A stretch of DNA of 64,000 nucleotides from Balneolaceae bacterium (lineage in GTDB: Bacteria; Bacteroidota; Rhodothermia; Balneolales; Balneolaceae), in assembly GCA_034521445.1 (NCBI GenBank), contig JAXHMM010000003.1, positions 186,001-250,000 of the forward strand, read 5' to 3'. Shown here in pieces: positions 11,031-12,244 of this stretch; position 1 is the first letter of the stretch; each line of letters begins with the position of its first letter. The notes under the pieces are model-generated. The model was not told the origin of the DNA. It saw nothing but the letters and a program-made list of their open reading frames with translations, and searched no databases. The translations under genes and the position numbers were made by a program.

Positions 11031-11051
11031 AGTTCTGCGCACACCATTGAT

Positions 11052-11123
11052 GAATTATAGAACGGTTTTCTATAACTCATTATTTGATATATATTGAGTT
11101 ATAGAAAACAAACCTATAACTCA
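11052..11123 (+). promoter_or_regulatory. Operator-like array of four TATAACTCA half-sites before the Fic gene
   Basis: A perfect 15-bp inverted repeat lies at 11065-11079 and 11095-11109 (arm GTTTTCTATAACTCA, 15-nt spacer). A third direct copy of CTATAACTCA runs from 11114 to 11123 and ends on the A of the start codon. A degenerate inverted copy (GAATTATAGAAC) lies at 11052-11063. The half-sites alternate in orientation. The region is AT-rich against a GC-rich background. Protein binding here would cover the transcription and translation start, so an autoregulatory role is a reasonable inference, because the Fic protein has a C-terminal winged-helix-like region. Confidence 0.75.
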
Positions 11124-12244
11124 TGGCGTGGAATTGGCAACATAGCGATTGGCCGAAGTTCGACTACGAGCTGAATGCCTATGCAGACTACGAAAAGCAG
11201 TTTCTGCAACAAGACGGAATATTTGTCGGAAGTTTAAAGCATCTCGGCGAGGAAGAGCAGGAATTGCTCAGAATAGAACTTCTCAGCGATGAGGCCTATA
11301 AAACGTCCGAAATAGAGGGTGAACTGTTGCGTCGTGACTCCCTGCTATCATCCATCCGAAAGGAATTCGGGCTTCAGGCCGATTATCAGGACGTTTCTCC
11401 GGCTGAGCAGGGCGTGTCGGAAATGATGGTGAATCTCTATCGGAATTTTGAGGCTCCGCTCAGCCGTGAACTGCTCTGCAGGTGGCACAGCATGATTATG
11501 AAGGGTCGCAAGGACCTGGAAAAGGTGGGGGCTTACCGGATCCACACCGATCCCATGCAGATTGTATCCGGTTCCATGAATCGCCCGAAGGTCCATTTCG
11601 AGGCGCCTCCCTCCGCGAGGGTGAGCGAAGAAATGAAATGGTTCATCCATTGGTTCAACCGAACCCGCCCCGATGGGGAGCATTCCCTGCCGGCCCTGGT
11701 GCGTTCGGGCATCGCCCACCTCTATTTTGAAAGCATTCATCCCTTTGAGGACGGGAACGGCCGTATTGGGCGAGCGCTCTCCGAGATGGCCTTGGCCCAG
11801 CACGCGGGACGTCCGCCCCTCCTGGCCCTGTCCGCCACCATAGAGGAGAAGAGAACGGCCTATTACGGTGCCCTTCAGCAGGCTTCCGCACGCATGGAGA
11901 TTTCGGCGTGGCTCTCCTATTTCTGCCGGCTGGTCCTGGATGCCCAGGATCGCACGCAAAGCACCATTGACTTTCTGGTTGAAAAGGGGAAATTCTATCG
12001 TTCCTACCTGGACCTGCTGAACGAGCGCCAGGCCAAAGTGGTGAACCGGATGTTCCGGGAGGGCATATCAGGTTTCGAGGGGGGACTCAGTGCGGACAAC
12101 TATCTCTCCATCACGGGGACGTCCAGGGCAACGGCAACCCGGGATCTGCAGGACCTGGTGAAGATGGGCGCGTTCAGGCGAACCGGGGAAAGGAGATATA
12201 CGCGTTATTACCTGAACATCGATCACCCTTCGGCTCAATCCTGA
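11123..12244 (+). CDS. Fic/DOC family protein (probable AMPylase) with DUF4172-type N-terminus and C-terminal winged helix
   Basis: Fic proteins usually transfer AMP from ATP to a hydroxyl on a target protein. The core motif 'HPFEDGNGRIGRA' is complete at residues about 205-217, with catalytic His and the phosphate-binding loop. A class II inhibitory motif, T-x3-E-G ('TSEIEG', residues 61-66), is present, so the enzyme should be autoinhibited through Glu65. The N-terminus ('MAWNWQHSDWPKFDY') matches the DUF4172-type cap. The C-terminal 60 residues ('NYLSITGTSRATATRDLQDL') look like a winged-helix DNA-binding domain. The start codon is fused to the operator array and no Shine-Dalgarno is visible. 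No toxin or antitoxin partner gene lies next to it. The target is unknown. Confidence 0.9.
   Translation: MAWNWQHSDWPKFDYELNAYADYEKQFLQQDGIFVGSLKHLGEEEQELLRIELLSDEAYKTSEIEGELLRRDSLLSSIRKEFGLQADYQDVSPAEQGVSEMMVNLYRNFEAPLSRELLCRWHSMIMKGRKDLEKVGAYRIHTDPMQIVSGSMNRPKVHFEAPPSARVSEEMKWFIHWFNRTRPDGEHSLPALVRSGIAHLYFESIHPFEDGNGRIGRALSEMALAQHAGRPPLLALSATIEEKRTAYYGALQQASARMEISAWLSYFCRLVLDAQDRTQSTIDFLVEKGKFYRSYLDLLNERQAKVVNRMFREGISGFEGGLSADNYLSITGTSRATATRDLQDLVKMGAFRRTGERRYTRYYLNIDHPSAQS

Follow-up and report, generated by a model that had tools for sequence, protein, structure and literature searches.

A start-codon-fused array of alternating half-sites as the probable autoregulatory operator of a class II Fic protein with a C-terminal winged helix

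The window analyzed here, i.e., the whole 64-kb stretch of DNA under study, carries on its plus strand a fic gene (11123-12244) that encodes a DUF4172-Fic-winged-helix protein of 373 amino acids. The DUF4172 domain at the N-terminus spans residues 3-84 (11129-11374, plus strand; PF13776, E 1.4e-23), and the Fic domain is matched in Pfam with E 1.5e-15. The Fic motif HPFEDGNGRIGR at residues 206-217 (11738-11773, plus strand) conforms to the pattern HPFx(D/E)GNGRxxR of class II Fic AMP-transferases, while the inhibitory motif TSEIEG is located N-terminally at residues 61-66 (11303-11320, plus strand), a position characteristic of class II, and closes helix 43-64 of an AlphaFold2 model. Based on these two motifs, we classify the protein as a class II Fic enzyme with predicted AMPylation activity. 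Across 48 homologues, no variation is seen at the catalytic H206 or at E209, D210, G211, N212, G213, R214, I64, E65, and G66.

At the C-terminus, the AlphaFold2 model (mean pLDDT 92) shows a winged helix-turn-helix at residues 301-364 (12023-12214, plus strand) that is composed of helices 301-312, 324-331, and 335-347 as well as strands 351-354 and 361-364 with a wing at residues 355-360. The best structural match to the whole chain of the model is CbFic2 (PDB 8CIL; TM 0.85), which also aligns in sequence over residues 3-353 (E 5e-69) and has the same fold and domain order, i.e., a PF13776 N-terminus followed by the Fic core and a C-terminal winged helix.

Directly 5' of the fic gene lies an array of four half-sites with alternating orientation (R1-, R2+, R3-, R4+) at 11051-11123. 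R1 (11051-11060, minus strand) reads TGAATTATAG, i.e., CTATAATTCA on the minus strand, and is the weakest copy with one mismatch, R2 (11070-11079, plus strand) is CTATAACTCA, and R3 (11095-11104, minus strand) reads TGAGTTATAG, i.e., again CTATAACTCA on the minus strand. R4 (11114-11123, plus strand) is also CTATAACTCA, and its last A is the A of the fic ATG at 11123-11125. The core of the half-sites is TATAACTCA. R1 and R2 form a first operator palindrome of 29 bp (11051-11079, no strand) and R3 and R4 a second one of equal length (11095-11123, no strand), so that the array consists of two 29-bp inverted repeats offset by 44 bp. R2 and R3 with their flanks make up a perfect 15-bp inverted repeat, GTTTTCTATAACTCA at 11065-11079 and TGAGTTATAGAAAAC at 11095-11109, which a repeat search also returned as a block with 34-nt arms of 82% complementarity. 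An earlier note on this DNA had described this perfect repeat, a third copy ending on the A of the ATG, and a weaker fourth copy, all of which are borne out by our analysis, though its block start at 11052 needs a small correction to 11051. The complete Fic motif, the class II inhibitory motif, and the winged-helix-like C-terminus that it had read from the protein are likewise present.

The array is confined to this single place. All four matches to CTATAACTCA with at most one mismatch in the 64-kb window fall within these 73 bases, and a search of the entire 3.2-Mb genome for the paired form TGAGTTATAG-N9-CTATAACTCA, tolerating three mismatches or fewer, finds it only at 11051-11079 (one mismatch) and 11095-11123 (no mismatch), while a reversed control pattern gave no match in the same genome. 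Sixteen further genomes have the paired site at the Fic locus, and outside it only three more copies turned up, namely one AT-rich palindrome and two "orphan operators" beside scpB paralogues. We had also considered a global regulon and discarded it, given one site cluster per genome save these three extra matches in 16 genomes.

To follow the array across the family, 80 homologues were retrieved by protein similarity alone with upstream DNA as no selection criterion. The 80 are the top matches among at least 555 relatives and hence the closer part of the family (at least 48% identity). We read the upstream DNA of these loci and refined a half-site matrix with broad spacings allowed, counting the window among the 81 loci. 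The four-site model fits 80 of these 81 close-homologue loci (window included), and the sole cause of the misfit at L026 is a degenerate R4 preceding a GTG start; the half-sites that the earlier note had suggested looking for upstream of DUF4172-Fic homologues are thus conserved rather than a peculiarity of the window. Judging by record titles, the hosts comprise Alpha-, Gamma-, Zeta-, and other proteobacteria, Acidobacteria, Bacteroidota, Verrucomicrobia, Nitrospira, Nitrospinota, Dadabacteria, and Planctomycetota. With half-sites taken as 11-bp units, the R1-R2 spacer is 9 bp in 67/80 loci and the R3-R4 spacer is 9 bp in 76/80, while the R2-R3 spacer takes two values (13 bp in 49 loci, 14 bp in 31). 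The start codon occupies R4 positions 10-12 in 77/80 loci, and R1 is the weakest copy also across the family, being poor or lost in around 13 of the 80. When scored for R2+R3+R4 with leave-one-out matrices, every locus exceeded the best of 480 dinucleotide shuffles (observed minimum 15.5 vs. shuffled maximum 10.3).

The neighbors of fic in the window, annotated by eye, are what we take to be tsaD upstream on the same strand and rnhA/pyrF-like genes on the opposite strand. Across the 80 loci, no neighbor family among ORFs of at least 60 aa, a limit above the 47-aa AS1 of Sofic, recurs in more than six, and fic therefore appears to be a stand-alone gene with its own operator, in agreement with the absence of a partner gene noted earlier. 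A two-gene toxin-antitoxin arrangement as in class I Fic or Sofic-AS1 was rejected for lack of a conserved partner among ORFs of at least 60 aa, and a phage origin was set aside with no DNA match in phage records and only distant and partial protein matches there. The neighbor family that recurs in six loci comprises scpA/scpB-like (chromosome segregation) genes, which adjoin the Fic gene in related Rhodobacteraceae (L018, L029, L030, L034, L035, and L069). The orphan R1-R2-R3 arrays (L209, 1612-1670; L210, 1692-1750) in turn adjoin scpB/scpA paralogues without a Fic gene and are probably remnants of a deleted Fic locus.

The spelling of the half-sites varies among loci and shifts together within a locus, with a within-locus agreement at variable positions of 0.731 vs. 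0.499 +/- 0.014 once sites had been permuted across loci. Base 1 (C/T) follows residue 358 in the wing of the Fic protein (R358-Y359 in the window; 12194-12199, plus strand): Arg goes with C in 45 loci and Lys with T/A/G in 29, i.e., in 74 of 79 cases with five exceptions. Of the 815 column/residue states compared by a tree-based test for correlated evolution, this pair comes out first (LR 41, 4 df, p ~3e-8), and wing position 359 is also among the top eight. Bases 5-8 follow residues 335-336 (R335 and A336 in the window) of the recognition helix (residues 335-347; 12125-12163, plus strand), with R335 accompanying C7 in 48/50 loci, S335 accompanying A7 in 11/12, and P335 accompanying a base other than A at position 5 in 10/10. 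By correlated evolution, S335 takes second and P335 third place for base 7, and P335 is also second for base 5. Of the co-varying residues, 335 and 336 open the recognition helix in the AlphaFold2 model, and 358 lies on the wing.

A multi-base association without correction for relatedness places A238 on top and R335 second, a ranking that we do not take as proof, and R335 and A336 lead (first and second of 332 columns) only once 8 or 12 principal coordinates of relatedness have been removed. Some columns outside the recognition helix, e.g., L308 and A42, also rank high for bases 5 and 7. Correlated-evolution tests may inflate significance if changes are few, and an independent-pairs test offers four strongly supported pairs; a mean of 3.4 of these agree with the expectation and none contradicts it, but their number does not suffice for a sign test. 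Seven loci had been left out when deriving the residue-base code, and all of them conform to it: L086 and L165 (R335, R358) show mostly CTAT..CTC, L087 (R335, K358) shows TTAT..CTC, L088 and L091 (S335, K358) show mostly TTAT..ATC, L186 (A335 S336, K358) shows TTATAGCTC, and L187 (P335) shows TATCGMTC. This co-variation with residues of recognition helix and wing makes the Fic protein itself the likely reader of the array and, together with the conservation of the array, supports the autoregulation that the earlier note had proposed, with DNA binding as its predicted step. With half-site and recognition helix having drifted in concert across phyla, the system would also be a clear natural case of a regulator co-evolving with the one site it reads.

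A candidate core promoter, weak in sequence, overlaps R2 and R3 (TTTCTA-N17-TATATT, 11067-11095, plus strand; -35 at 11067-11072, -10 at 11090-11095), while a generic promoter/terminator scan of the window returned nothing at threshold. Among the homologous loci, the best -35 most often starts three bases ahead of R2, the best -10 most often overlaps with the first bases of R3 (22-23 of 80 loci), and the spacer between R3 and R4 contains an AAAGGA consensus as ribosome site. Transcription would then start inside R3. From this arrangement and the co-variation, we conclude that the array is very probably the dedicated autoregulatory operator of fic, which would be read by the protein's own C-terminal winged helix, bound by dimers, and repress the gene in a negative feedback loop. 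More specifically, one Fic dimer joined via the N-terminal DUF4172 helix would probably sit on each 29-bp palindrome (R1-R2 and R3-R4), and two bound dimers would cover core promoter and start codon and thereby exclude RNA polymerase. Once enough dimer is present, transcription would be blocked, resulting in a single-gene negative feedback loop. We infer physical binding, the occupancy of one dimer per palindrome, and the repressive sign. The rigid spacing of R1-R2 and R3-R4 compared to the two-valued spacing of R2-R3 suggests one dimer per palindrome, and so does geometry, since the half-site centers are 20 bp apart (ca. 68 Å in B-DNA), close to the 70 Å between the DNA-binding helices of the dimer of CccR, a Fic protein of Yersinia pseudotuberculosis (PMC9755527). 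Such self-repression would account for the control of a potentially toxic class II Fic enzyme in the absence of an antitoxin.

Inverted repeats upstream of genes are usually the sites of some regulator, and with Fic binding to the array being a prediction, the operator could in principle belong to another cellular transcription factor. We consider this very unlikely because base changes in the array go along with changes in the recognition helix and wing of the same locus's Fic protein, because the array travels with fic across phyla amid unrelated neighborhoods, and because its absence from the rest of the genome leaves no other regulon for such a factor. A chance or local low-complexity repeat in a single genome, which the short AT-rich stretch might suggest, is already refuted by the conservation at 80/81 loci, which none of the 480 shuffles reached, and by the uniqueness of the array in 3.2 Mb.

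R3 and R4 could also pair in the transcript with a 9-nt loop and the start codon at the edge of the stem, and the array might thus act at the RNA level, with a leader hairpin masking ribosome site and start codon in the mRNA. However, R1 and R2 are placed just as strictly yet lie outside any such hairpin, R3 and R4 agree no better with each other than R2 and R3 do (8.84 vs. 8.76 of 10), which leaves no extra pairing constraint, and the co-variation of the half-sites is with the protein. Moreover, transcription from within R3 would truncate the hairpin, and the folding of the leader thus shortened does not surpass that of shuffled sequences, so that we regard this explanation as extremely unlikely. 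Activation instead of repression by the bound Fic protein, or a role of the DNA as allosteric ligand only, finds a precedent in CbFic2, for which DNA is a ligand that alters the enzyme mode (PMC10628234). We nevertheless deem this improbable in light of the half-sites overlapping the likely -35 and -10 as well as the start codon in fixed register, a geometry fit for blocking, and of the known relative CccR being a repressor (PMC9755527).

Autorepression by Fic-HTH proteins is already known from CccR, which combines a Fic domain with a C-terminal HTH and represses its own promoter via an inverted repeat in a manner that requires the dimer (PMC9755527). The window protein resembles CccR as a class II Fic enzyme with a C-terminal HTH and an inverted repeat in its own promoter, and the conservation and base/residue co-variation described above suggest that this repeat is likewise read by the protein's own HTH. 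Half-site, number, and spacing differ, however, since CccR by its published description has two boxes (AGATAATCAT-N26-ATGATAATCT), while the window has four alternating half-sites with 9/13/9 spacers and the last one fused to the ATG. Furthermore, CccR is a secreted T6SS effector, and nothing of that sort was seen for the Fic protein of the window. A family-wide operator of four half-sites that is fused to the start codon and comes with a readable protein-DNA code would thus appear to be a new variant of this known theme.

For CbFic2 of Coxiella burnetii, a DUF4172-Fic-wHTH protein, it has been reported that the winged helix binds DNA and that DNA induces dimerization and a change from AMPylation to deAMPylation (PMC10628234). 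These experiments used random DNA only, whereas a specific site could be identified for the window family from sequence, and the authors named the specific binding sequence of such enzymes as an open point of special interest (PMC10628234). We found no specific DNA site for the DUF4172-Fic-wHTH family in the papers available to us. The candidate operator and its predicted contacts (335, 336, and 358) now make an effect of specific DNA on the AMPylation/deAMPylation mode testable. With CbFic2 dimerizing and switching on DNA, the operator-bound dimer might be repressor and deAMPylase in one. It is therefore conceivable, though rather doubtful, that dimers on paired half-sites shut off the gene and lock the deAMPylating state, and that repression of the gene would be lifted just when the protein is a monomer and AMPylates. 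If this coupling were true, the family-wide residue-to-base code would define hundreds of orthogonal one-gene switches.

The single-gene anti-phage proteins SoFic/Sofic are likewise class II Fic enzymes with a winged-helix C-terminus, and the PADLOC SoFic profile matches residues 44-365 of the window protein (E 1.9e-51). An assignment as SoFic equivalog was nevertheless rejected at 59.6 bits against the NCBIfam NF046030 cut-off of 550. Sofic-AS1 differs by a small antitoxin gene (PMC12249575), while among ORFs of at least 60 aa none is conserved downstream in the window family. The window's own genome encodes two more SoFic-like Fic paralogues of 28-29% identity (L082, G000:C5:328693-329547; L083, G000:C6:395421-396086), and the operator is absent from both. 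Among SoFic-like relatives below 31% identity, repeats are present without one fixed spacing. SoFic-like Fic genes also have repeats upstream of the start codons at L178, L179, and L181 (CTTATTTAAG type) and at L123 and L128 (TATCTACTA type). These repeats before SoFic-like genes suggest that self-regulation may be general among Fic-wHTH proteins, which would make such enzymes one-gene self-repressing modules more broadly.

Distant DUF4172-Fic clades retain an inverted repeat with an outer length of 29 bp, while half-site words and recognition residues differ, and both copy number and ATG fusion are variable. In the window's own phylum, proteins that combine K335 A336 with the wing sequence GGRS go with the half-site word WATTCGGCTCA, proteins with K335 D336 go with a TTGCA/CGTCGCA-type word, and proteins with Q335 D336, mostly from viral contigs, go with ATTCNCCGCA. 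In this second DUF4172-Fic clade of mostly viral contigs (L097-L120, L196, and L197), in which the recognition residues are mostly Q/P335 D336, the ATTCNCCGCA half-sites stand before the Fic start, sometimes in as many as six copies.
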